Positions 11,153 to 24,294 of a stretch of 41,685 bases of DNA are shown one piece after another. Source of the DNA: Sphingobacteriales bacterium. GTDB taxonomy: Bacteria > Bacteroidota > Bacteroidia > AKYH767-A > OLB10. Below the pieces are notes generated by a model. It worked only from the letters and a program-made list of their open reading frames with translations, did no database searches and was not told where the DNA came from. The stretch is from positions 1 through 41,685 of the forward strand of contig JAJTFW010000009.1 of NCBI GenBank assembly GCA_021299095.1, in the 5' to 3' direction. The translations under genes were made by a program, and so were the position numbers. Within the stretch, counting starts at the first letter, position 1; every line of letters begins with the position of its first letter.

Positions 11153-13117
11153 ATGATCAGCAATACCACCAAGGAGCAGATTCTGGATTCCGCCCGCATA
11201 GAAGAGGTGGTGGGTGATTTCGTGGTCTTGCGAAAGCGCGGTGCGAATTTGTTGGGACTCTGTCCCTTTCACAACGAACGTACCCCCTCATTCACGGTTT
11301 CTCCCGCGAAGGGGTTTTTCAAGTGTTTCGGATGCGGTAAGGCCGGCGATTCGGCCACCTTTGTCATGGAGCACGAGCACCTCACATTTCCTGAGGCGCT
11401 GCGATGGCTTGCTACAAAGTACAACATCACAATCGAGGAGGAGGCTCCATCTGCCGAACAGGCTGAACAGGACTCCTTGCGCGAGAACCTGTTCACCGTA
11501 ACCGGCTTTGCCCAGGATTTTTTCGAAGACGCACTCTGGAACAGCGATGAAGGACGTTCGGTTGGTCTTTCCTATTTCCGCGAACGTGGTTTCAGTGACC
11601 AAACCATCCGAAAGTTCAAACTCGGTTATGCATTCGAAAAGTGGGATGCATTGACGGCTGCCGCATCAGAACGCGGTTTTCAACCGGAATTGCTGGAGAA
11701 AACCGGACTCACCATAGCTCAGGAAAACCGTCGGTACGATCGGTTCAGGGCGCGCGTGGTTTTCCCGATACACAACCTGACCGGAAGGCCTGTAGGTTTC
11801 GGTGCCAGGATTCTGAAATCCGACCCCAAGAGCCCGAAGTACTTGAACTCTCCCGAAACGGAGATTTACTTCAAGAGTAAAAACCTATATGGTATCGCAC
11901 ATGCCAAGAAGGCGATTATTGCATTGGATGCCTGTTACCTCGTTGAGGGGTATACAGATGTGGTATCCCTGCACCAGGCGGGTGTCGAAAATGTGGTGGC
12001 CTCCAGTGGAACCGCACTCACGGTAGAGCAAATCCGCCTGATTGGACGCTATACCCGGAACATTACGGTGCTGTATGATGGCGACCCCGCAGGGATAAAG
12101 GCCTCCCTGCGTGGCATTGATCTCATTCTGGAAGAAGGAATGAATGTTCGTGTGGTCCTGTTCCCCGATGGCGATGATCCCGATTCATTTTCAAAGCGTG
12201 TGGATCAGGTTGAGCTGAAACGCTTCCTGGACGCAGAAGCGGTCGATTTTATCAGTTTTAAAACACGGTTGTTGCTAGGCGATGCCGCGGGAGATCCGAT
12301 TAAACGTGCAGCATTGATACGTGATATCGTTTCGACCATCGCAAAGGTTCCTGATGCCATCACACGTGCTTCGTATATCCGTCATACTGCTGTCCTTATG
12401 GAGATGGCCGAGAACGTATTGCTCGGCGAACTCAATAAGTTATTACGGAGCAAGGCCACAAGTCGCCCTACCGATCCGGGCGCAGTACCTGGGCCATCAC
12501 AAGATGGTGTCGAATCCGGTGGCCCCGAAGATCCGGGTGCCGAAGAGCAGACTGTAGATGAGTTCGATGCCATCACCCAGGAAGAGGAGATTATCCGGAT
12601 CCTGTTGTTGTATGCCGATCATGAAATTATGGTCCCGGATGCTGAAACAGATAGAACCGATGGACCCCAAGTGCGTATCCGTGACTTCATCGTTTCCGAA
12701 TTGCGTTTCGATGATATCCGGTTTATGAATCCGGTATATGCAGGAATCCTCGCGGAGTTTGCGGCGCTATCCGACAACGCGCTTGGGTATGATCAGCAAC
12801 GCTTCTTACAAGTTCTTGATCCGGAGATACGCCAAACAGCTATTAGTCTGATGACACCTACACATCAGCTGGCCGATTGGTCACGCCATAAGATTGATGT
12901 CAAGACCGAAGAACAGCAACTCCACAAGGCTGTGATCGATCCGGTGGCCTACATCAAGAAAAAGCAGATCATCCGTATCAAGGCGAATAAGTTTCTCGAG
13001 CTCAAGACACTTTCGGAAGCAGGTATCTCATCCGACCATTTGCTGGAGGAATTGCGAGAATTGAATAATCTGCAGATGTATTACAACCGATTGACGAATA
13101 CCGTCATTCAGAAGTGA
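11153..13117 (+). CDS. dnaG: DNA primase DnaG
   Basis: A 654-residue bacterial primase that makes RNA primers at the replication fork. The N-terminal CHC2 zinc finger is clear (CPFHNERTPSF followed by FFKCFGCG near residues 41-62). The TOPRIM catalytic core follows, with YLVEGYTDVVSLHQAG and VLYDGDPAGIKAS carrying the acidic metal ligands. A variable linker rich in Pro, Gly and acidic residues (about residues 438-470) precedes the C-terminal helicase-interacting part. The stop overlaps the convergent propeller gene by 10 bases, leaving no room for a terminator. The ATG at 11153 gives the usual start, close to ILDSARIEEVVGDFV. Confidence 0.97.
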   Translation: MISNTTKEQILDSARIEEVVGDFVVLRKRGANLLGLCPFHNERTPSFTVSPAKGFFKCFGCGKAGDSATFVMEHEHLTFPEALRWLATKYNITIEEEAPSAEQAEQDSLRENLFTVTGFAQDFFEDALWNSDEGRSVGLSYFRERGFSDQTIRKFKLGYAFEKWDALTAAASERGFQPELLEKTGLTIAQENRRYDRFRARVVFPIHNLTGRPVGFGARILKSDPKSPKYLNSPETEIYFKSKNLYGIAHAKKAIIALDACYLVEGYTDVVSLHQAGVENVVASSGTALTVEQIRLIGRYTRNITVLYDGDPAGIKASLRGIDLILEEGMNVRVVLFPDGDDPDSFSKRVDQVELKRFLDAEAVDFISFKTRLLLGDAAGDPIKRAALIRDIVSTIAKVPDAITRASYIRHTAVLMEMAENVLLGELNKLLRSKATSRPTDPGAVPGPSQDGVESGGPEDPGAEEQTVDEFDAITQEEEIIRILLLYADHEIMVPDAETDRTDGPQVRIRDFIVSELRFDDIRFMNPVYAGILAEFAALSDNALGYDQQRFLQVLDPEIRQTAISLMTPTHQLADWSRHKIDVKTEEQQLHKAVIDPVAYIKKKQIIRIKANKFLELKTLSEAGISSDHLLEELRELNNLQMYYNRLTNTVIQK

Positions 13118-14346
13118 TTCGGCTGGTGTAGCACTCGTACCGATTTCCAACTACCATCAACGGGGCGAATCAGAAGTAAGCCCGGAGGAAGTCCCGCGAG
13201 ATCTATCAACCCTTGGCTTGTGTTCGTAAAAGAAACAACTCGTCCTTCCGGTAATAGGATTTCCACCTGCACAGCATCGCGTACATCGGTCAATCGGATA
13301 AACCGACCCGATGGATTCGGATAGGCACGGACAGACGCACTTGTTTCTTGCAACACGGCAATTCCAGTTGTGGTCTGCGTATCCAAAATATATAGCCCCG
13401 CAGTCTGCGTGCCAATCCAGATACGTCCAGCACTGTCTCTCGCCAGGCATTGTACCGTAATGTCATCCAGTGGCGAGTTGGTACTGTCGGAGTAGCTGAA
13501 ACTTGAACCGGATTTCCGGATCAGTCCTTTGTTCAAACTGCCAATCCACGCATCCTGCATACTATCGGCCAGTATGCAGGTGAGTCCGCTGGTGGGGATA
13601 TTGGATGAAACCAAATTGTAGGTGAACCAGCCGAAGGGATTCAGTTTTACAATGAGGCCATTTGCAGGTGATACGAATAGTATATTCCCCGCTGCATCTT
13701 GGTCAATCCCTAAAACGGTGTTGTCGGAAATACCGGAGTTTTGGATGGTGAAGGAGGTTAATGTGGTGTCATTGACTACGCGCAGAGCTCCTCCGTTTAC
13801 TGTTCCCGCCCAAAGTTCATTGTTCACGGTGTCGTGGTGCAGGCAGGCAATGTTGTTCGAGCCCAGGACACTGTTCCACATGGTGTAGATAGTCCAGTTG
13901 CCCACGCTATCGATTCGTACGAGTCCGGCAGTTGTACCTAACCACAAGCTACCTGATGGTCCTTTTGAAAGTGACCGAACGTAGTCATCTGGTAAGGATG
14001 AGTTCGATGTGTTCAGATTCGTCCATGCGGTATCGTTGTAGGTATATAAACCCGCACTGAACGTTCCGATGAACTTGGTGTTATCAGTTCCGATGCACAA
14101 GCTCCGGATATCGTTGCTGGCAAGTGGTGAATTGGTGCTATTGAAAACGGTCCATGCGCCATTCGAGAATCGTGCAAGTCCGAAATCGGTGCCAATCCAG
14201 GCAGTTCCATCGGATTCAAAAGCAATGCAACGCACTGACGGAAAGGGTAGCGGGGAATTGGTATCTGTATACTGTGTCCAGTTCTGTGCGAAGCTTGATC
14301 CACCAATGCAAACGGCTAACATGAATATAATTACGGCGCGAAACAT
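13108..14346 (-). CDS. T9SS-exported seven-bladed propeller protein
   Basis: A 412-residue exported protein. A signal peptide (residues 1-20, ending SSFA before Gln21) is followed by seven repeats of about 42-45 residues, beginning near residues 30, 72, 115, 158, 203, 247 and 290. Each has the pattern N-S-x-L/I, then a hydrophobic core, then W-I-G-T or a variant, as in two-component regulator propeller repeats. Seven blades would close one complete propeller. The last ~75 residues (from AYPNPSG at 341) resemble a T9SS type A sorting domain. No kinase or transmembrane part is present, so it is probably a secreted or surface-bound ligand-binding protein. Substrate unknown. The start ATG has a TATTTTCG box 17 bases upstream. 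Confidence 0.87.
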   Translation of the reverse strand: MFRAVIIFMLAVCIGGSSFAQNWTQYTDTNSPLPFPSVRCIAFESDGTAWIGTDFGLARFSNGAWTVFNSTNSPLASNDIRSLCIGTDNTKFIGTFSAGLYTYNDTAWTNLNTSNSSLPDDYVRSLSKGPSGSLWLGTTAGLVRIDSVGNWTIYTMWNSVLGSNNIACLHHDTVNNELWAGTVNGGALRVVNDTTLTSFTIQNSGISDNTVLGIDQDAAGNILFVSPANGLIVKLNPFGWFTYNLVSSNIPTSGLTCILADSMQDAWIGSLNKGLIRKSGSSFSYSDSTNSPLDDITVQCLARDSAGRIWIGTQTAGLYILDTQTTTGIAVLQETSASVRAYPNPSGRFIRLTDVRDAVQVEILLPEGRVVSFTNTSQGLIDLAGLPPGLLLIRPVDGSWKSVRVLHQPNHF

Positions 14347-14425: not shown

Positions 14426-17400
14426 TTATTCTACGATAAGTCTTTTTGATTGTACTTCACCTGCAAGTCTCAGACTTACAATATATACTCCTCGGTGGAA
14501 TTTGCGCAGGTCAATGTTCAGCGTATTGATACCCTGTTCTGCAGTCGTCTGTCCTGAGTAGATCTCCTGACCTATGACGTTGATGATGGTGATCTGAGCA
14601 CTTTCTCCTTCGTTGGCATTGTAACGGAGTTCAACCTGCTCGGTTGCCGGGTTGGGGATGAGGCTGAGTTCCATTGGTAGGCTAGATCCATCGGTTATGC
14701 GCGGACAGGTTGTCAGGGTGATTGACTTCCGCTGGTAGCTGCTGGTTCCGCAGGCATTGGAAGCAGCGACACGTACATAACCGCTGGCAGCACTGAGGGA
14801 GAAGTTGATGCTAACGGATGCACTTCCTTGTCCACTTGCGAATGTAGCTCCACTAGGTGCCGTCCAGTTGTGCGATGTAGCTCCATAAACGGGGGTAACA
14901 GAAAATGCAACCCCAGCTGCACCTTTGCAGATAGTCGATGGACCATTGATTACACCTGGGACACTAACAGCGGCATTCACGGATAACGAACGTGAAGTAC
15001 TGGTACCGCAACCGTTGGTAGCACGCACACTAAGTGTACCCTTGGTGAACGAGGTGCTGAACTGAACCTGAACGGTTGACGTTCCCTGTCCGCTGAGAAT
15101 TGTAGCTCCAGTGGGCATGGTCCAGGTGTAGCCTACTCCGGTAACGGCAGTAACCGAGTACGTGTGTATTCCCCTGCAGACTCCATTGGCAGGACCGATG
15201 ATGGCTGCCGGAGTGGTGGGCGTATTGAGTGTGATGGAACGTGAGAGTGATGCACTCGTTCCGCAGGAGTTGGATGCGTTGACTGCCAACGTGCCACTCG
15301 TGAATCCGGTATTGAAGCGGAGGCTGATGGAATTGGTTCCCGCTCCAGACAGGATTGTGGTATTGGCTGGTATCGACCAGTTGTATGTAGTTGCACCTGT
15401 GACTGTATTACACGTGTATTGTATCACATCGTTGGGGCAGGCCTTCAGGTTTCCGGTGAGTGAAGTTGGTGCAACCGGAGCACCTGTCAATACGGTAACC
15501 GTTGAACACTTTGAACTGCTGGTTCCGCAGGCATTGATGGCCGAAACGCAAACACTTCCTGAAAGTGCGCTTCCTGCGCTCACACTAATGGAGGATCCAC
15601 TCCCACCGGAGGTGATGTTCATGCCTGAGGGCACGCTCCAGCTGTATGAAGTGGCGCCGCTCACAGCGCTAGCCGTATAGGTTGCGGTGAAGGGCGCGCA
15701 GCCGCTCAAATTACCGGAAAATGAAGCCGGTGATGAGGGCGCAGACGCAACTACAACAGTGACCAGCGCCGTATCTGTGCATGCACCTTGGGTTCCAACG
15801 ACGGTATAGGTTGTTGTTTGTGCAGGACTTGCCGTTACAGTGCTACCCGTTGTGGTATTGAGCCCCGTAGCTGGTGACCATACGTAGTCGTTCGCGCCGC
15901 TTGCATTAAGTGTAACACTTCCACCACCGCAAATAGCAGATGGCGTATTGGTTGTCACATTGATGCTGCTGTTCATGGTGACAGCAACGCTGGCCGAATT
16001 TTGACAACCTGTTCCACTCTCCGTTGCAGTAACGGTGTAGGTGCTGTTGCTTTGAGGGAATGCGGTGACGGTTGAACCGCTGGCACTGAATCCTGCAGGA
16101 TTCGAACTCCAGGCATAGCTTACGGTGGTAGGTACAACATTATTCAAGGTCAGTGTCCAGTTTTGGATTGTACCTACATCAGTGTTTGCAAGGTCAATAA
16201 CTTTCAGCAGCCAGGTTCCGTTTACGTTTCCGGTCAGGCTGTTGAATGACCCTTCCGGCTTGAAACTACCCGTGAATGGAGCTGCACCTGAGCTGATGAA
16301 ATTAGCAGCACTTGTGGTAAATACGGTGTTGGTGTAGTTGTCACCGCTTCCACCCCTTCGATTGCTTAGGATAATGCTGTTTTGTGATGGGGAAATCAGA
16401 ACGAGTTGTATGTCGCCCGCATAGGTGTGCGTGATGTTCACCTTTACTGATACCACTGTACTGGAATTGATTGTAGCCGGGTTGATTCCACTTACAGCGA
16501 TAGGGCTGCTAACTCCATTGGCGTTGTTGTCCGGAATGGAGTAGGCGGTTGTGTTGCTGAAAGCAGTTGCCAGGTTAGTGGTACCCCCAGTCGTGGCTGT
16601 GGCACTTAGAGAAACAGCTTCTCCCGGACAAACCGATGTAGGATTTGCAGCAGCCGTTACTGGAATTTGCGAAACCGTAACGGTTGCCGGATTCGAAGTA
16701 GAAACACAGGATGTCCCGCTGTTGACGGTTACACTGTAGGATCCGGATTGCGTTACCGTGATGGATTGCGTGGTGGCTCCGTTTGACCACAGGTAGTTCT
16801 GTGCAGAACTGGCCGTAAGGGAGACACTACCTCCTTGGCAGAACGAAGTAGAGCCGCTCGCCGTAATGACAGGATTACTACCGCCTTGTTGCGTGAGCGT
16901 GATGGGTGTTGCCAATACGTTATTGGTCTCGTCACTTTCAAGGAAATAGTTGTAAGGGTCAAGCTGCACAACAATCCAATAATTCCCATTGCATACACCC
17001 GGAGGAATATTGATCCACATACCGTCAAGCGACTGGTAGTAGATATCCGTGTAACCCGAGGATATCCCTTGTACTGACTGAGAGCATCCGTATGCTCCGC
17101 CGCCGAGCCCATAATTGGGGAAGTTGGAATTGATGAGGGTATTGCCTGCGCTATCTGTGCAATGTCCGTTGTAGGTAGAGCAGGAGCCATAATCCATCAG
17201 GCAGAATGCCAGTTTGGAACCTGTACCAATCACGGGCCAGTTCAGTGGATTGGGATCAGAGGTTGCGGTACGAAGGGTGTATATACCCCAATCGTCAACG
17301 TGCATATGACCATGTGACGGGTGGTAGGTCATTGTTCCGGCCACTCGGTCGGTGTACGACATCGTGTTTCCGTTTTTACGGTACACGCGTTGATTGAGAA

Positions 17401-17773
17401 TCGTCTTTAAGGGTTGTCCGTTGGGACAAGTAAATGTCGACGAAACGTTGTAGAATGTATCCGTGCCACAGATTGCAGTCGGGGTGGAGCGCACTTCCAG
17501 CGGACCCAATCCGACATTGGGACTAGAAACCGAAAGCCTGAGTCGTCCGTCGTTTCCGTTGCAAGATGGATTACATACCTGCGGATACTCGAGGTATCCG
17601 CTCGAGCCATTCACAAGCATGGGAGGCCTGGCCACCTTGATATCCGGCAGCAGGTCACATTGGGTTGTGCCGTTTTGACAAACGCAGGATGTGGCATTGG
17701 TAGTAGTACATTGGGCCAATACTGCTGCAGGCATTAACATCACGAAGATCAGCGCACGTAGGAGTAGTTTCAT
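14426..17773 (-). CDS. T9SS-exported multidomain protein with lysyl oxidase domain
   Basis: This 1115-residue exported protein starts at the ATG 17771-17773 (an upstream in-frame TTG only lengthens the signal peptide). The signal peptide is residues 1-20. Residues ~43-292 form a lysyl oxidase domain: copper-site histidines 151, 154, 156 and 158 in YHPSHGHMHVDDW, Lys187 in SKLAFCLMD, and Tyr245 in TDIYYQSLDGMWINI align with human LOX Lys320 and Tyr355, which form the lysyl tyrosylquinone cofactor; GNYWIVV and ESDETNN follow as in LOX. An Ig/PKD-like domain (~300-370), a proprotein-convertase P domain (~405-545), further PKD-like domains, and four ~83-residue repeats with a CGTS motif (~681-1020) follow. 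A T9SS sorting domain ends the protein (~1037-1115). Predicted role: copper-dependent oxidation of amines or lysines outside the cell; substrate unknown. Confidence 0.9.
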   Translation of the reverse strand: MKLLLRALIFVMLMPAAVLAQCTTTNATSCVCQNGTTQCDLLPDIKVARPPMLVNGSSGYLEYPQVCNPSCNGNDGRLRLSVSSPNVGLGPLEVRSTPTAICGTDTFYNVSSTFTCPNGQPLKTILNQRVYRKNGNTMSYTDRVAGTMTYHPSHGHMHVDDWGIYTLRTATSDPNPLNWPVIGTGSKLAFCLMDYGSCSTYNGHCTDSAGNTLINSNFPNYGLGGGAYGCSQSVQGISSGYTDIYYQSLDGMWINIPPGVCNGNYWIVVQLDPYNYFLESDETNNVLATPITLTQQGGSNPVITASGSTSFCQGGSVSLTASSAQNYLWSNGATTQSITVTQSGSYSVTVNSGTSCVSTSNPATVTVSQIPVTAAANPTSVCPGEAVSLSATATTGGTTNLATAFSNTTAYSIPDNNANGVSSPIAVSGINPATINSSTVVSVKVNITHTYAGDIQLVLISPSQNSIILSNRRGGSGDNYTNTVFTTSAANFISSGAAPFTGSFKPEGSFNSLTGNVNGTWLLKVIDLANTDVGTIQNWTLTLNNVVPTTVSYAWSSNPAGFSASGSTVTAFPQSNSTYTVTATESGTGCQNSASVAVTMNSSINVTTNTPSAICGGGSVTLNASGANDYVWSPATGLNTTTGSTVTASPAQTTTYTVVGTQGACTDTALVTVVVASAPSSPASFSGNLSGCAPFTATYTASAVSGATSYSWSVPSGMNITSGGSGSSISVSAGSALSGSVCVSAINACGTSSSKCSTVTVLTGAPVAPTSLTGNLKACPNDVIQYTCNTVTGATTYNWSIPANTTILSGAGTNSISLRFNTGFTSGTLAVNASNSCGTSASLSRSITLNTPTTPAAIIGPANGVCRGIHTYSVTAVTGVGYTWTMPTGATILSGQGTSTVQVQFSTSFTKGTLSVRATNGCGTSTSRSLSVNAAVSVPGVINGPSTICKGAAGVAFSVTPVYGATSHNWTAPSGATFASGQGSASVSINFSLSAASGYVRVAASNACGTSSYQRKSITLTTCPRITDGSSLPMELSLIPNPATEQVELRYNANEGESAQITIINVIGQEIYSGQTTAEQGINTLNIDLRKFHRGVYIVSLRLAGEVQSKRLIVE

Positions 17774-17935
17774 GGAGAAATAAAGCTTCAATATGTTGTT
17801 TTTGGTTCAACGCAATTTACATCAAAAACGAAGCGAATGCAACATTTTTATGTCCACAGAAAATTCAATGTATACCCCCATTATTGAGCATTCTATTGAT
17901 GATATTTTCGACTTTATACCCAAAAAAGAAACAAA

Positions 17936-19090
17936 TCACCTCAAGAGCCTGTCCAAAATGGCTGAAAACTTACGCTGGTATTCCCGCCAGGCCTCGCCTG
18001 TAGCTGGACCCGAAAAGCCTGCGTGGACATACACCACCTGTCCATCCCAGTTGGTTATAATGGTTGTGGGGTAGGAGATAAACTCCTGCATGCCCGGAAA
18101 TACCTCCTTGAGTCGCGTCTTATCCGCCTGTCCGGCATAGAGGACAGCGTAGTGAAGACCGAGCCGGTTAATGGTTCGCTTCAATCCAGGCATTGCTTTA
18201 CTGAAATCTGCACTGCGTTCAAATGCGAACCCGATCACTTCCAATCCCTCTTCCCTGCGAGCGGTGTAGACACTATCCAGAAACACGGATTCATCCATGC
18301 AGTTCGGACACCATGTGCCCATGATCTGATGGATGATGACCTTTTTTCGGTACCGCGTGTCCGTGTGTGAAACCAGGTTGCTGTCGCAGTCCGGCAGTTG
18401 AAAGCCAACCCCTCCTTCAAAACGGGTGATAGAGGAGGGATCCCGGAGTGCGATGGCATCGTTTCGCTTGGCATGGAACGGAGCCTGGTAGTTGTTGCCC
18501 GAAAAGAACACTCCGCGTAAACTCTCTCCATCAATCTTGGCCATATACAGCCACGCGTGGCTTCCATCGAACACGCTCAACTTTAGTGAGTCACCAAGTA
18601 GTTGGCCCTCGAGGAAACGGTGGTCACCGGTTTCCGTCATGAATGTACCGTAAACCTGATTTTCAGGTCCACGTCGAAAAAGTCCGATGGCCAGCGATGA
18701 ATCGCTTTGTCCAGCATCAAACCAGGTTTCCCATTTGCCCGACAACGGATCTATTTCAGGAGTTACTGAAGATCCCTGGAAGCGGTTCTTGATACCTTTT
18801 TCAGCATGGAAAGGGATGCTCGTTGGCGTTTTCCTGCCACGGTTGATCCAGACTCCGTCCAGCGTTGTAGCCCCGGCTTTGAACCGAAGCTCTGAGTCAT
18901 ACAGGGGGAGGCGAACGAAAATTGAATCTCCTGCGGAAGTGATCTCATCGCATACAATACGTTCTTCCGCATTCTGAATGATTACCACTTGCTTTCCCTT
19001 TCTGTCTTCAATGCTGAAGTGGAAAGGAAGTACAACTCCGGGCAATTGAAGTATGCCCAGCCAAAGTCCGATGAGTGCAGAGGTATTCAT
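17936..19090 (-). CDS. exported TlpA-like thioredoxin-fold protein
   Basis: A 384-residue protein with a hydrophobic N-terminus (signal peptide or anchor, ~1-22), a long beta-rich N-terminal region of unknown type (~25-225) and a C-terminal thioredoxin-like domain. The redox motif is WCPNC (residues 260-264) in IMGTWCPNCMDE, and a probable cis-proline lies in ISYPTTIIT, as in TlpA/ResA. It probably exchanges thiols and disulfides in the periplasm; the partner is unknown. Its start overlaps the stop of the lipoprotein gene by 4 bases (ATGA), placing it last in a three-gene operon behind the TMTC-like protein. The ORF ends before the long AT-rich leader of the lysyl oxidase gene. Confidence 0.8.
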   Translation of the reverse strand: MNTSALIGLWLGILQLPGVVLPFHFSIEDRKGKQVVIIQNAEERIVCDEITSAGDSIFVRLPLYDSELRFKAGATTLDGVWINRGRKTPTSIPFHAEKGIKNRFQGSSVTPEIDPLSGKWETWFDAGQSDSSLAIGLFRRGPENQVYGTFMTETGDHRFLEGQLLGDSLKLSVFDGSHAWLYMAKIDGESLRGVFFSGNNYQAPFHAKRNDAIALRDPSSITRFEGGVGFQLPDCDSNLVSHTDTRYRKKVIIHQIMGTWCPNCMDESVFLDSVYTARREEGLEVIGFAFERSADFSKAMPGLKRTINRLGLHYAVLYAGQADKTRLKEVFPGMQEFISYPTTIITNWDGQVVYVHAGFSGPATGEAWREYQRKFSAILDRLLR

Positions 19091-19638
19091 GGGGTTGAAT
19101 TTTTTCCGAAGCGTCCTTCAACAACAGTTGTTTCTGTATTTCCGAACCGCGTTTTCTGTACAATGGTAAACGAGTATCCACTCCGGCTGTTGTAGTGCAT
19201 GGTTTTCTGAAGCGTGAACCAGAGGTTGCTTCGTTCTGTCCTAGCCGTAATCATTGTGTCTCGTTTGGAGAATGAGCAGATAAGTTCCCTGAGCGCGATT
19301 CCCGGATCTGTGGCGTGGTATTGCAGACTAATCCTGTTTGTCTTTTGTACGGTATCACAGTCAAAAGCTCCGTTCCACGAGTTTTGGTTGAACTTCAAGT
19401 CGAGCAAGGGAGCAAGTTCCTGGGTCCAATCTGGATCATTGAGGTGTCTTGTTTCCCGTTTACCATTAATGGTAATTGTCTTTCGTAATCCGGTGTGATC
19501 CGCATTCAAACTAAGGGTCTGATTCTGCATAAAGGATTCATATGCGAAGCGTGAATCATCCAGCGTTGATGGTGTACGCTCGCACGAAGTCATCACTACA
19601 ATGCAGGCAAGGAAAAGGATGGGTCTTAAACAGATCAT
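19087..19638 (-). CDS. hypothetical lipoprotein
   Basis: A 183-residue protein with a lipoprotein signal peptide ending in VVMTSC, so it should be lipid-anchored at Cys19. The rest is mostly polar, beta-rich and without a family I recognise. It overlaps both neighbours by 4 bases: its start lies over the end of the TPR membrane protein gene, and its stop over the start of the TlpA-like gene. The three are therefore co-translated. Function unknown; co-occurrence suggests an envelope role with the other two. Confidence 0.75.
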   Translation of the reverse strand: MICLRPILFLACIVVMTSCERTPSTLDDSRFAYESFMQNQTLSLNADHTGLRKTITINGKRETRHLNDPDWTQELAPLLDLKFNQNSWNGAFDCDTVQKTNRISLQYHATDPGIALRELICSFSKRDTMITARTERSNLWFTLQKTMHYNSRSGYSFTIVQKTRFGNTETTVVEGRFGKNSTP

Positions 19639-21737
19639 GGTGTATTGGCGCGTCCAGCACGTTCAAGATAGATGCGTGCCTGAGCCGTATCGCCCATAGT
19701 ATTAAGGGTAACGCCGATATTGATGAGGGCTTTGGTATTTCCGGGATCTGCCTCTGCGGCTTTTTTGAAATAAACCAATGCACTGTCTGGTCGGTTCAGT
19801 AAGATATGGCAGTTACCCGAGTTGTTGAGCGCATCCGTATAGTTCGGCTTTACGTCCAGCGCTTTTCGGTAATAAATCAGCGCAGAGGTGTAGTTACTCT
19901 GTTTGGCAAAGGTGTTCCCTTTATTGTAGAGGGCTTTCTCTGAACGTGTATCAATTCGCAAGGCAGTGTCAAGTGCAGCGTGTGATTCTGTGAACATTCC
20001 TGCATCACTCAGGTACAGTCCATAGTTGTTCCACACGTCGACATCGCCAGGTGAAAGTTTGCAGGCTTCCCGGAGGTCTGCAATCGCTTTGTCGAACTGC
20101 CCGTTCATTCCGTAGGCGAGTCCGATGGCGTTGAGATGTTCCGCATCGGTAAAGGCTTTGTATGACCTTGCTTGCTCCAGTGCACGAACCGCTTCTGCTG
20201 CATTGTTTTTTTCCTTGTAGGCTAGTCCTAAGTGATACCAGGCTTCATTATAATTCGGAAGGATGGTGACACCTCGTGAAAGTTCGGCAATTGCACGGTC
20301 AAGGTAGTTTGTTTTTGCAACCGACCCCTCGGGTTCCTTAAGGGCTTTTTCAATGAGGTAGGCACTGCCTAAGGCATAGCGTATGCGCGCACTGTTAGGC
20401 GATACCTTCACATCGTGTTCCAGCAGAGTCAGGTTGTCTTTCCAATCCGTATTTCTGCTGATCGTCCGCGCGCTCAGGAGTAACAATGCTGGCAGGACCA
20501 AAGCCAAAAACAGCGGTTGGCGCAGGCTTGACGCCTGCAAGGGCTGCGATCGCTCACCTTTAGGCAGAAGATTGCCGAACCCGATAGCCAACACAATAGC
20601 CAATCCGACCGATGGTGTAAAGGTGAATCGCTCCGCCATGGTTGCCTCAATCAGCATGAACACATTGGATACAAGCGCAATGGTGCCGAGGTAAAACAGG
20701 ATTCCGAAGGCCATGGGATGTTTTCGGTTGAAAGTCCGGATTACAAACCAGCACGCAGCAACGCATATCAATAGACTGAGTAATGCCCCCGGATGACTGA
20801 AACTCACGGTGGGGATGGTATTGTAGGAATAATCAAATGCGAGGTTTTTCGGAAAGAGAAACAAAAGGAGGTATTTACCATTGGTCAGCAGGGCCGTGGC
20901 AAGCTGTTCACCAGCGGATTTCGCACCAACCATCGAATTGTTGATGAGCATGAGCTCGAATCCTCCTCCGATTTCACCCAATACAGCCAGACGTAGTGCA
21001 AAGAATCCAATCAGTACCAGTACGAAGGGGATACAGGTGCGAAGCAAGCTGGCCGGTGATTTCCCTCTGAAAAACCAAAGGCTTAGTGGGTAGACACCAA
21101 GCCAGGTCACTGAATTTTCTTTTGCAAGCAGTGCTAGCGCAAAAGTAAGGGAAGCAAAAACCAGGCTAGCCTTATGTCCTTGGTCCGTATAGCGAATCAA
21201 CATCAACAATCCAGCGATACCAAAGAGGAATGCGAGGAGTTCATCGCTACTCTTGATGTTTGCGACAACTTCGGTATGCAGGGGGTGCACCAACCAGATT
21301 AACGTTGCAGTTAACGGTACCAGAGGATGTAGGCTGCTAAGCAGTCGAAACAGGACGAGGTATAGGCATGCCGCCGACAATGCGTACAGGAGGATGTTAA
21401 TCAGGTGTCCGGGTAGGGGGTTGTCCGGAAAAAACTCCCACTCCAATGCGAAAAGTGCCACCGAAAGGGGACGATATAATCCTTCTTGGCGGTCCCAAAA
21501 ACCGGCTCGGTATGCTTCACTGAAAATGTCATCGATGCCTTGGATGCCCTGTTTGGTGAAGCGGTTGTTGCCGATCACGGTACCATCGTCGATGGTGAAT
21601 TCATGGCCGAGCGTGTTGATATACAACAATGCGGCAATTAGGGCGCAGAACAGGGCGACGTATGATGTCGGTATGCCTTTGGTGGCTCCGGGTTTGGCGG
21701 CAGTCATGGGTTCATCCAAAGGTAAATGCTCCATCAT
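19635..21737 (-). CDS. TMTC-like GT-C glycosyltransferase with C-terminal TPR repeats
   Basis: A 700-residue membrane protein. The N-terminal ~420 residues hold about ten hydrophobic segments and features of the TMTC/PMT-like GT-C glycosyltransferases: a luminal-type Asp-Asp at 50-51 (FTIDDGTVI), LYRPLS at 88-92, and HPLHTEVVANIKSSDEL at 151-167. From about residue 430 on there are several tetratricopeptide repeats (for example YNEAWYHLGLAYKEKNN and VDVWNNYGLYLSDAGM). Such proteins transfer a sugar from a lipid carrier to proteins on the outer face of the membrane. The substrate is not known; glycosylation is inferred from fold resemblance. It heads an operon with the lipoprotein and the TlpA-like gene. 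The first ATG (21737) is followed immediately by a second ATG, either of which could start it. Confidence 0.8.
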   Translation of the reverse strand: MMEHLPLDEPMTAAKPGATKGIPTSYVALFCALIAALLYINTLGHEFTIDDGTVIGNNRFTKQGIQGIDDIFSEAYRAGFWDRQEGLYRPLSVALFALEWEFFPDNPLPGHLINILLYALSAACLYLVLFRLLSSLHPLVPLTATLIWLVHPLHTEVVANIKSSDELLAFLFGIAGLLMLIRYTDQGHKASLVFASLTFALALLAKENSVTWLGVYPLSLWFFRGKSPASLLRTCIPFVLVLIGFFALRLAVLGEIGGGFELMLINNSMVGAKSAGEQLATALLTNGKYLLLFLFPKNLAFDYSYNTIPTVSFSHPGALLSLLICVAACWFVIRTFNRKHPMAFGILFYLGTIALVSNVFMLIEATMAERFTFTPSVGLAIVLAIGFGNLLPKGERSQPLQASSLRQPLFLALVLPALLLLSARTISRNTDWKDNLTLLEHDVKVSPNSARIRYALGSAYLIEKALKEPEGSVAKTNYLDRAIAELSRGVTILPNYNEAWYHLGLAYKEKNNAAEAVRALEQARSYKAFTDAEHLNAIGLAYGMNGQFDKAIADLREACKLSPGDVDVWNNYGLYLSDAGMFTESHAALDTALRIDTRSEKALYNKGNTFAKQSNYTSALIYYRKALDVKPNYTDALNNSGNCHILLNRPDSALVYFKKAAEADPGNTKALINIGVTLNTMGDTAQARIYLERAGRANTP

Positions 21738-21804: not shown

Positions 21805-24243
21805 TCAGTGACCGTGGTCTCCGCAGCCTTCCGATTTCATACCTGCACAATTGTCACCTGATTCGGCGCAAACCTTCATGCATTCTTCGGCCTTGATGTA
21901 GCATTTTCCACCCTCCATCTTGACACAGTCGCTGCTGTCGCAGAGACCTTCAGACATCCATTGTGCACAGGTTGCTGAGTCAACGATGCAGTTTCCGTCA
22001 GCGTCCATCTGGCAGCCGTTACCGGCTTCCATGTGGCATTCCATTTTCGGCATGCCCGCACAGCAATCGTCCGATGCCGCTGCTCCGTGTCCGCCGTCGA
22101 GCGCGATCAGCGGAGCAATGGTTAAACCAACCAGCGAGGAAAGTTTGATGAGGATGTTCATCGATGGACCTGAGGTATCCTTGAATGGATCGCCCACGGT
22201 ATCACCAACGACGGCAGCCTTGTGTGGCTCAGATTTCTTGTAGAAGGTTTCACCATTGATATCAACCCCTTTCTCGAATGATTTTTTCGCATTATCCCAG
22301 GCTCCACCGGCGTTGTTCTGGAAAATAGCCCACAACACACCGCTCACGGTAACACCTGCCATATATGCTCCGAGGGCTTCAGGGCCCATCACGATTCCGA
22401 TGACAATCGGGCTTACGATGGTAATGATACCCGGAAGCATCATCTCGCGAAGAGCGGCCTTGGTGGAAATTTCTACGCAACGTCCGTAGTCGGGAGTTCC
22501 GGTACCTTCCATGATACCTGGAATTTCGCGGAATTGTCGGCGGACTTCATTGACCATTTCCATGGCAGCTTTACCGACAGAATTCATGGCCAGCGCAGAA
22601 AATACAACCGGTACCATACCTCCAATAAAGAGGGCCGCCAGAACCTTGGCATCAAAAATATTGATGCCCTGGATTCCGGTAAAGGTGACGTATGCTGCAA
22701 AGAGAGCAAGAGCGGTGAGGGCTGCAGAAGCAATGGCGAAGCCTTTTCCGATGGCTGCAGTCGTGTTACCGACAGAGTCCAGTACGTCGGTCTTCTCACG
22801 GACATCAGATGGCAGTTCGCTCATTTCGGCGATACCGCCTGCGTTATCTGCAATAGGACCAAAGGCGTCGATAGCCAGTTGCATAGCGGTGGTGGCCATC
22901 ATGGCGGTAGCCGCAATACCGACACCATAAAAACCTGCGAGAGCGTAAGCTCCCCAAATGGCTCCGGCGAAGAGTATCACCGGCAGCGCAGTCGATAGCA
23001 TTCCGGTACCCAAACCGGCGATGATATTGGTGGCTGCACCCGTAGCGGATTTTTGTACAATCGACATCACGGGCTTCTTGCCAAGACCCGTGTAGAATTC
23101 TGTGATGTAGGAGATGGCACCGCCTACGAACATTCCGATGACCACCGCATAGAACACGTTCATGGCTGATGGGTTCATAATCTGGAATTCACCGGCATTG
23201 AACGATTTCATGGTCAGTTCGGCAGGAAGCATCCAGTGAATCAGGAAGTAGGAAGCTACGAGCGCGATGATAATCGATACCCAGTTGCCGCGGTTGAGCG
23301 CTGACTGAACCGTATCGGTGTTTGCTGTTGCGTTGTCTTTTACGCTCACCAGCCAGGATCCGATGATTGAAGCGATGATGCCTACACCCGCAATGGTCAG
23401 CGGAAGCAGTATGGGTCCGATACCACCGAATATGTCGTTGATACCATTCATGTCGCGGATAACGTAGTTACCCAAAACCATTGAAGCAAGTACGGTGGCC
23501 ACATATGAACCGAACAGATCGGCACCCATACCGGCAACGTCACCGACGTTATCACCCACGTTGTCAGCAATAGTAGCCGGGTTACGGGGATCGTCCTCCG
23601 GGATGCCAGCTTCGACTTTTCCGACCAGATCGGCTCCTACATCAGCGGCCTTGGTATAGATACCGCCGCCAACACGTGCAAACAGGGCGATGGATTCTGC
23701 ACCCACCGAGAAACCGGCCAGTACTTCCAAAACCTGTGTCATGTCATCGGGGCCACTCATGATACCACCCATGAAGAATTTGTAGAACAGAATGAATAGC
23801 ATGCTCAAGCCGAGTACGGCCAGTCCGGCTACGCCCAATCCCATCACCAAACCACCGGAGAACGATACGTTCAGCGCTTTGGAGAGTGAAGTACGCGCCG
23901 CCTGTGTGGTGCGTACATTCGCCTTGGTAGCGATCCGCATTCCGATGAATCCGGCCAGGGCGCTGAAGATGCAGCCCACGATGAACGAGGCGACGATCAG
24001 CAAGTGTGAGGTTTCGACAAGCTGGCTGAGAATTCCCAGGCCGATGCTGGCAATAACCATGAAAATGGAGAGAATCCGGTATTCGGATTTGAGGAAGGCC
24101 ATGGCGCCTTCGGCAATGGATTTAGCAATGCCTTGCATTTTGGCATCGCCTGCATCCTGACTGTTTACCCAGCGAGCCTTTACAAACATGTAGGCCAATC
24201 CGAGAAGACCCATCGCCGGTACCACGTACACGAAATTTTCCAT
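21805..24243 (-). CDS. hppA: K+-dependent membrane pyrophosphatase with Cys-rich tail
   Basis: An 812-residue membrane-integral pyrophosphatase that couples pyrophosphate hydrolysis to ion pumping. It has the family core with FARVGGGIYTKAADVGADLVG (residues 188-208), EDDPRNPATIADNVGDNVGD (216-235) and SVGNTTAAIGKG (490-501). Ala496 and Gly499 fit the K+-dependent class. The pump Glu of helix 6 is absent (DLFGSYVA at 242-249), while Glu183 in GAESIALFAR lies at the helix-5 position (5.43). I recall this arrangement from Flavobacterium-type H+-pumping enzymes. An extra C-terminal tail (~718-812) carries 13 cysteines. The start is the ATG at 24241-24243, because the preceding in-frame sequence has no family character and holds the -7 box. 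Confidence 0.95.
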   Translation of the reverse strand: MENFVYVVPAMGLLGLAYMFVKARWVNSQDAGDAKMQGIAKSIAEGAMAFLKSEYRILSIFMVIASIGLGILSQLVETSHLLIVASFIVGCIFSALAGFIGMRIATKANVRTTQAARTSLSKALNVSFSGGLVMGLGVAGLAVLGLSMLFILFYKFFMGGIMSGPDDMTQVLEVLAGFSVGAESIALFARVGGGIYTKAADVGADLVGKVEAGIPEDDPRNPATIADNVGDNVGDVAGMGADLFGSYVATVLASMVLGNYVIRDMNGINDIFGGIGPILLPLTIAGVGIIASIIGSWLVSVKDNATANTDTVQSALNRGNWVSIIIALVASYFLIHWMLPAELTMKSFNAGEFQIMNPSAMNVFYAVVIGMFVGGAISYITEFYTGLGKKPVMSIVQKSATGAATNIIAGLGTGMLSTALPVILFAGAIWGAYALAGFYGVGIAATAMMATTAMQLAIDAFGPIADNAGGIAEMSELPSDVREKTDVLDSVGNTTAAIGKGFAIASAALTALALFAAYVTFTGIQGINIFDAKVLAALFIGGMVPVVFSALAMNSVGKAAMEMVNEVRRQFREIPGIMEGTGTPDYGRCVEISTKAALREMMLPGIITIVSPIVIGIVMGPEALGAYMAGVTVSGVLWAIFQNNAGGAWDNAKKSFEKGVDINGETFYKKSEPHKAAVVGDTVGDPFKDTSGPSMNILIKLSSLVGLTIAPLIALDGGHGAAASDDCCAGMPKMECHMEAGNGCQMDADGNCIVDSATCAQWMSEGLCDSSDCVKMEGGKCYIKAEECMKVCAESGDNCAGMKSEGCGDHGH

Positions 24244-24263
24244 AGGGGTTTTATTAGGGCCTG

Positions 24264-24294
24264 CGAAGGTAGCAGTTTTCCGATTAGTGGGCAA
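24264..24294 (-). promoter_or_regulatory. hppA: putative hppA promoter
   Basis: On the minus strand a TTG (24292-24294) is followed after 20 bases by TACCTTCG (24271-24264), one mismatch from TAnnTTTG, and then by 20 bases to the hppA ATG. The spacing fits the Bacteroidota promoter pattern. Confidence 0.5.

Follow-up and report, generated by a model that had tools for sequence, protein, structure and literature searches.

A divergent, T9SS-exported branch of the lysyl oxidase superfamily in Bacteroidota and its recurrent beta-propeller neighbour

Lysyl oxidases and the protein encoded in the window

Human lysyl oxidase (LOX) cross-links collagen. LOX domains are also distributed among Bacteroidetes, Actinobacteria, Proteobacteria and other groups, with the characteristic Lys and Tyr conserved (Grau-Bove et al. 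2015, PMC4448552). The prokaryotic proteins in that survey have a LOX-only architecture in all but three sequences, and the bacterial ones lack the first His of the copper motif (PMC4448552). The archaeal LOX of Haloterrigena turkmenica is an active amine oxidase that is blocked by 3-aminopropionitrile (PMC6452851). Prokaryotic LOX genes are known, and their job is not (PMC4448552, PMC6452851). Even for human LOXL2, represented by 5ZE3, the only solved LOX-family structure that we found, the mechanism by which the lysyl tyrosylquinone (LTQ) cofactor is made has been described as still elusive (PMC9694262).

The window analyzed here is a 41,685-nucleotide stretch of contig JAJTFW010000009.1 from an uncultured Sphingobacteriales bacterium. 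An open reading frame on its minus strand spans 14426-17791 if a TTG start is taken, and contains an internal ATG at 17773. The ATG is more plausibly the start than the TTG at 17791, as it opens a signal-peptide-like stretch (MKLLLRALIFVMLMPAAVLA, 17714-17773, minus strand, read by eye). The resulting protein of 1115 aa (14426-17773, minus strand), delimited from the open reading frame list and Pfam/NCBIfam domains, carries all of the following features on the same strand. A lysyl-oxidase-like domain at aa 25-300 (16874-17701) was placed by PF01186, by hhalign alignment to canonical LOX and by comparison of an AF2 model with LOXL2. It is followed by a proprotein-convertase P-domain at aa 440-543 (16145-16456; P_proprotein, PF01483, 57.4 bits), four stretches of PKD_6/Ig-like repeats at about aa 576-1010 (14744-16048; PF19408, 227 bits), and a T9SS type A sorting domain (Por_Secre_tail) at aa 1040-1114 (14432-14656), for which both PF18962 (45.2 bits) and TIGR04183 (41.7 bits) exceed their cut-offs. 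Among PDB entries, the PKD_6-type repeats best match GhpA, a grappling-hook protein of Aureispira (E 6.9e-30). In a profile search the genome was found to encode the T9SS machinery (SprA, 2632 bits), together with about 100 T9SS sorting tails. The protein is large and exported, and probably surface-displayed. The Pfam and NCBIfam matches and SprA bear out a preliminary description of this DNA, which had reported a LOX domain combined with a P domain, PKD-like repeats and a T9SS sorting domain.

Within the LOX-like domain, the motif HPSHGHMH (17300-17323) contributes H151, H154, H156 and H158 to a predicted copper site, with H154/H156/H158 corresponding to LOXL2 H626/H628/H630. K187 (17213-17215) and Y245 (17039-17041), the predicted LTQ precursors, are the equivalents of LOXL2 K653 and Y689, or LOX K320 and Y355. 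Numbered from the ATG at 17773, these residue positions and the Lys-Tyr separation of 58 residues are exactly those of the preliminary description, and the 35 that it gives for human LOX agrees with the published K320/Y355 (PMC4448552).

Relationship to lysyl oxidase and two classes in Bacteroidia

The Pfam Lysyl_oxidase profile (PF01186) matched the window protein at 34.6 bits (cut-off 20.4) with an alignment spanning only aa 227-295, so that the basis for assigning the His and Lys residues is profile-profile alignment and a PDB profile match, not Pfam. A phmmer search of the PDB with the single window sequence gave a marginal LOXL2 match (E 0.13). Used as a profile against the PDB, an alignment of 19 homologues from the window's branch, hereafter class B (alignment A1, PF01186 found in 19/19), matched LOXL2 at E 4.9e-5, pairing a G.K..FCL segment (weakly) and then a QGI..G..D.Y segment in the same order. 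When A1 was compared by hhalign with canonical class A LOX from the same bacteria (alignment A2), the probability was 97.9 and the E value 3.6e-13, with the His triad, Lys and Tyr collinear and the extra Lys-to-Tyr residues of class B placed as an insertion. This collinearity, along with the FCL and QGI..G..D.Y contexts common to LOXL2, upholds the earlier claims of LOX-like residue order and local sequence and of an insertion between Lys and Tyr.

The preliminary description had also proposed structural prediction and superposition on human LOX/LOXL2. An AF2 model of the window LOX domain (pLDDT 85.6, pTM 0.83) indeed matched LOXL2 5ZE3, with a Foldseek E value of 2e-7 and, in VIA, a Z score of 14.7, with 173 residues superposed at an rmsd of 3.3 and 24% identity. 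LOXL2 is the sole strong PDB match, the next entry being the CARDB domain 3idu with a Z of 6.8. That second match, together with weak, sub-threshold scores for CARDB itself (PF07705, 17-20 bits), might be taken to mean that the domain merely resembles a CARDB/Ig-like C-terminal fold and has no relationship to LOX. However, the LOX profile scores above its cut-off, and the His triad, Lys and Tyr are collinear with canonical LOX; given also the ranking of the structural matches (Z 14.7 for LOXL2 versus 6.8 for CARDB), we rejected this explanation as extremely improbable. Overall, homology of the window domain to LOX is secure, and the predicted model has the LOX fold. Absence of the C625, C685 and C695 equivalents led us to file the domain as a divergent branch of the lysyl oxidase superfamily rather than as an animal-type LOX.

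The window's genome encodes a second LOX, the canonical class A protein L001 (C91:5145-5594), which has a T9SS tail and matches most of the profile at 105 bits. As judged by alignment, class A retains the LOXL2 cysteines C625, C657, C663, C673, C685 and C695 and lacks the first His; in class B the first His is present, and C625, C685 and C695 have no equivalents. Class B is present in 27 of 42 genomes of the window's order. A survey such as the preliminary description had suggested for T9SS-tagged LOX domains located class B in 73 of 395 sampled Bacteroidia genomes, with a T9SS tail in most members and variable accessory modules (Ig_7, fn3, PKD, P-domain, dockerin-like). PF01186 was matched in only 4 of 395 genomes of a phylum-wide draw, indicating that LOX distribution is patchy. 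The highest count was observed in a genome of the same order (G041), with about 19 class-B matches nearly all on separate contigs. No class-B LOX domain was carried by the plasmid records. That bacterial LOX-like domains were already known, as noted at the outset, is documented by the Bacteroidetes LOX published in 2015 (PMC4448552). Class B is a divergent, multi-domain, T9SS-exported LOX branch and a new variant beside these, widespread and little described.

Gene neighbourhoods of class-B LOX

A survey of 84 class-B LOX genes revealed three recurring genomic contexts. In type I, the context of the window, a Reg_prop propeller gene of about 410 aa adjoins the LOX gene in 26 loci, a count in which related genomes are non-independent draws. 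The two genes lie on the same strand in 26/26 loci with gaps of 0-225 bp and one of 751; LOX comes first in 19 and the propeller in 7, these 7 all coming from one family. The window's own Reg_prop beta-propeller protein (412 aa, 13108-14346, minus strand; PF07494, 67.9 bits) is encoded 79 bp downstream of LOX. The pairing is not attributable to chance, since Reg_prop genes number only about four in the window's genome and a Reg_prop neighbour was seen at none of the 20 class A loci. On the class-B tree, the type I label requires 10 changes. The repeated pairing of class-B LOX with a Reg_prop gene is new here. In a literature search that mostly did not reach subscription papers, we found no paper on the LOX-propeller or other pairings described here, and none linking LOX to T9SS, MauG-type genes or DUF5777. 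We also considered the propeller as a lysine-rich substrate of the oxidase, which is unsupported given a Lys content ranging from 0.2 to 5%, and no lysine-rich substrate gene was found near the window LOX.

Directly upstream of the window LOX, at a distance of 162 bp, is a gene for a Redoxin/TlpA-like protein with a WCPNC motif (17936-19090, minus strand; PF08534). A gene of this kind lies directly upstream and on the same strand in a subset of the type I loci, namely L100, L127, L131, L153, L155 and L163 and further loci of the same family. The gene run upstream of LOX, with overlapping gene ends, includes a TMTC-like (O-mannosyltransferase-like) TPR protein (19635-21737, minus strand), also encoded near LOX in L127, L155, L161 and L094 and possibly involved in glycosylation of exported proteins. 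A membrane pyrophosphatase-like gene (21805-24294, minus strand, labelled by eye) is extended at its C-terminus by about 100 aa rich in Cys and Met; this extension recurs in variable form in L053 and L070 and is possibly metal-binding.

Type II loci combine LOX with a NapH/MauN-like 4Fe-4S/TPR protein, a cytochrome c, a DUF5777 barrel and a second cytochrome-like lipoprotein; a choice-of-anchor V T9SS protein often precedes this set. Some loci of one type II family possess MbnP and MbnH (MauG-family) genes, and a multicopper oxidase also occurs there. Type III is characterized by a shorter LOX form of about 610 aa, in some cases adjoining an SBBP-type propeller. MbnP and/or MbnH, a MauG-family diheme enzyme, are encoded at or beside LOX in class B (L106, L109, L147, L148) and in class A (L183, L184, L187); proximity to two separate LOX classes makes a copper-supply or cofactor link possible. 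As genome-level LOX markers, MbnP and DUF5777 were discarded. They are common across Bacteroidia, MbnP in 294/390 genomes and DUF5777 in 179/198, so solely their adjacency to LOX is informative.

Active-site conservation, proposed function and comparison with known systems

Alignment of 83 class-B domains revealed invariant K187, C191, C198, C205, N220, G240, D243 and Y245, and the conservation of K187 and Y245 in 83/83 places the observation of LOX residues far above chance. Cys30, Cys32 and Cys39 and an upstream LxPD stretch are near-invariant as well; these lie beyond the boundary at 17647 given in the preliminary description, which must be corrected to an earlier start. All four of H151, H154, H156 and H158 are kept in 68/68 class-B domains with an intact triad, a set that left out one outlier with Gln at the first His, and the other propeller-linked domains retain each of these residues, K187 and Y245 in 26/26. 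At the level of sequence, the invariance of these four His throughout the branch to which the window protein belongs is good evidence for metal use, and their strict conservation is a better indicator of LTQ than the presence of Lys and Tyr.

The type II domains illustrate why Lys and Tyr carry less weight. The His triad is lost in 14 of 22, with replacements as diverse as GSY, GTY, SSS, NNQ, QSH and others, and systematic loss alongside it is confined to M148 and the four His. Lys187, Tyr245 and the cysteines are retained. One copper-less member was modelled and again came out as LOX (pLDDT 75, Z 12.2 to 5ZE3). When the His columns are left out of the tree, copper-site loss requires three changes, and a sign test of loss against the Fe-S/cytochrome context was not significant, with only 2-3 independent events. 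The copper-ligand-less genes L102, L103, L104, L128, L146, L150, L151, L158, L162, L165, L168 and L170 all lie beside or near the NapH/MauN-like Fe-S/TPR gene. LTQ in LOXL2 requires every one of H626, H628 and H630 (PMC9694262), so the copper-less sisters would use Lys and Tyr structurally or differently; invariance of K187 and Y245 in 14 such relatives points to a copper-independent role there, and conservation of the pair alone is no proof of LTQ. The preliminary description had offered Lys and Tyr as LTQ evidence: both are present, but as evidence they are weaker than it assumed. Its proposal that a model placing the two residues far apart would refute the assignment is unsound, because they are 16.6 Å apart in the LOXL2 precursor 5ZE3 (PMC9694262).

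The cysteines of the window domain also depart from those of LOXL2, where C573-C625, C579-C695, C657-C673 and C663-C685 are paired (PMC9180022). This framework is not reproduced: S153, Y241 and G251 align with Cys625, Cys685 and Cys695, while C657, C663 and probably C673 are retained. The residue preceding Lys is S186 versus H652 in LOXL2, and an H652Q mutant of LOXL2 forms less than half of the LTQ (PMC9694262). The missing cysteine equivalents and pre-Lys His, and the invariance of K187 and Y245 in the 14 copper-ligand-less relatives, count against amine oxidase activity. An alternative is a metal-binding, non-catalytic adhesin module derived from LOX, in which K187 and Y245 are structural: persistence of Lys and Tyr without copper ligands is what such a role predicts, several LOXL2 disulfide cysteines are absent, and the PKD/P/Ig context is adhesin-like, with PKD repeats resembling those of GhpA. 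However, decay strikes exactly the His ligands and M148, elsewhere invariant (68/68), which suggests metal use, and the LOX model of the copper-less member (Z 12.2) implies that metal is seemingly unneeded for folding. We regard the adhesin module as rather unlikely. Less probable still is the idea that the Lys-Tyr pair of this branch can work without copper, its cofactor or cross-link being made or used there by a dedicated electron-transfer system, with the copper-bearing, propeller-paired window form then one of two alternative chemistries at one site. The Fe-S/TPR, cytochrome c and DUF5777 neighbours and the exact loss of copper ligands, with Lys, Tyr and all cysteines kept, may be read in this way, by analogy with MauG, which makes tryptophan tryptophylquinone.

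Overall, we judge it reasonably probable from the sequence evidence that the window protein is a T9SS-exported, surface or secreted copper amine oxidase of a divergent Bacteroidota branch of the LOX superfamily. Copper amine oxidase activity is itself likely, and a plausible use, by analogy, would be to cross-link proteins of the surface or matrix. The protein would cross the inner membrane via Sec, and in the periplasm its CPNC thioredoxin-like neighbour may help to set disulfides or copper; the T9SS would then carry it out, with the tail cleaved or anchored. Copper on H154/H156/H158 and O2 would turn Y245 and K187 into LTQ, and this quinone would oxidize primary amines to aldehydes, releasing H2O2 and NH3. 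The Reg_prop propeller most likely binds or presents substrate, or complexes with the oxidase at the surface. An active enzyme might instead serve small-amine oxidation or H2O2 production (nutrition, detoxification, signalling) rather than protein cross-linking. The archaeal HTU-LOX oxidizes numerous primary amines, with taurine, glycine and aminoglycosides among them (PMC6452851), a breadth that leaves room for either activity here, and the neighbourhood has no obvious protein substrate; the large modular stalk, T9SS tail and conserved propeller nevertheless fit surface or matrix action better than amine nutrition, and we hold the small-amine role to be possible but unlikely.

The proposed surface oxidase suggests that animals may not be the only organisms to apply LOX-type oxidative chemistry to extracellular material. 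T9SS export, a modular stalk and a conserved propeller partner make this LOX branch a concrete, testable surface system, and the sister branch without copper ligands amounts to a natural experiment on the purpose of the LTQ-precursor residues.

Compared with known systems, the window protein shares with human LOXL2/LOX (5ZE3) the fold (Z 14.7), an H-x2-H-x-H-x-H motif, equivalent K and Y residues, the FCL and QGI..G..D.Y contexts, and C657, C663 and probably C673. It differs in having 24% identity over aligned residues, a Lys-Tyr separation of 58 versus 35-36, no C625, C685, C695 or pre-Lys His, and Ig/PKD/P-domain modules with a T9SS tail in place of an SRCR or propeptide. Class A L001 of the same genome resembles the window protein in its T9SS tail, His triad, Lys and Tyr; in contrast, its match spans most of the Pfam profile (105 bits), it has LOXL2-like cysteines but not the first His, and neither it nor its 20 relatives were seen with an adjacent propeller gene. 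The Haloterrigena turkmenica enzyme, compared by its description (PMC6452851), is a prokaryotic homologue but is archaeal and of simpler architecture. Finally, class B is set apart from the LOX of Grau-Bove et al. 2015, as that paper describes them, by its multi-domain architecture and its first His.
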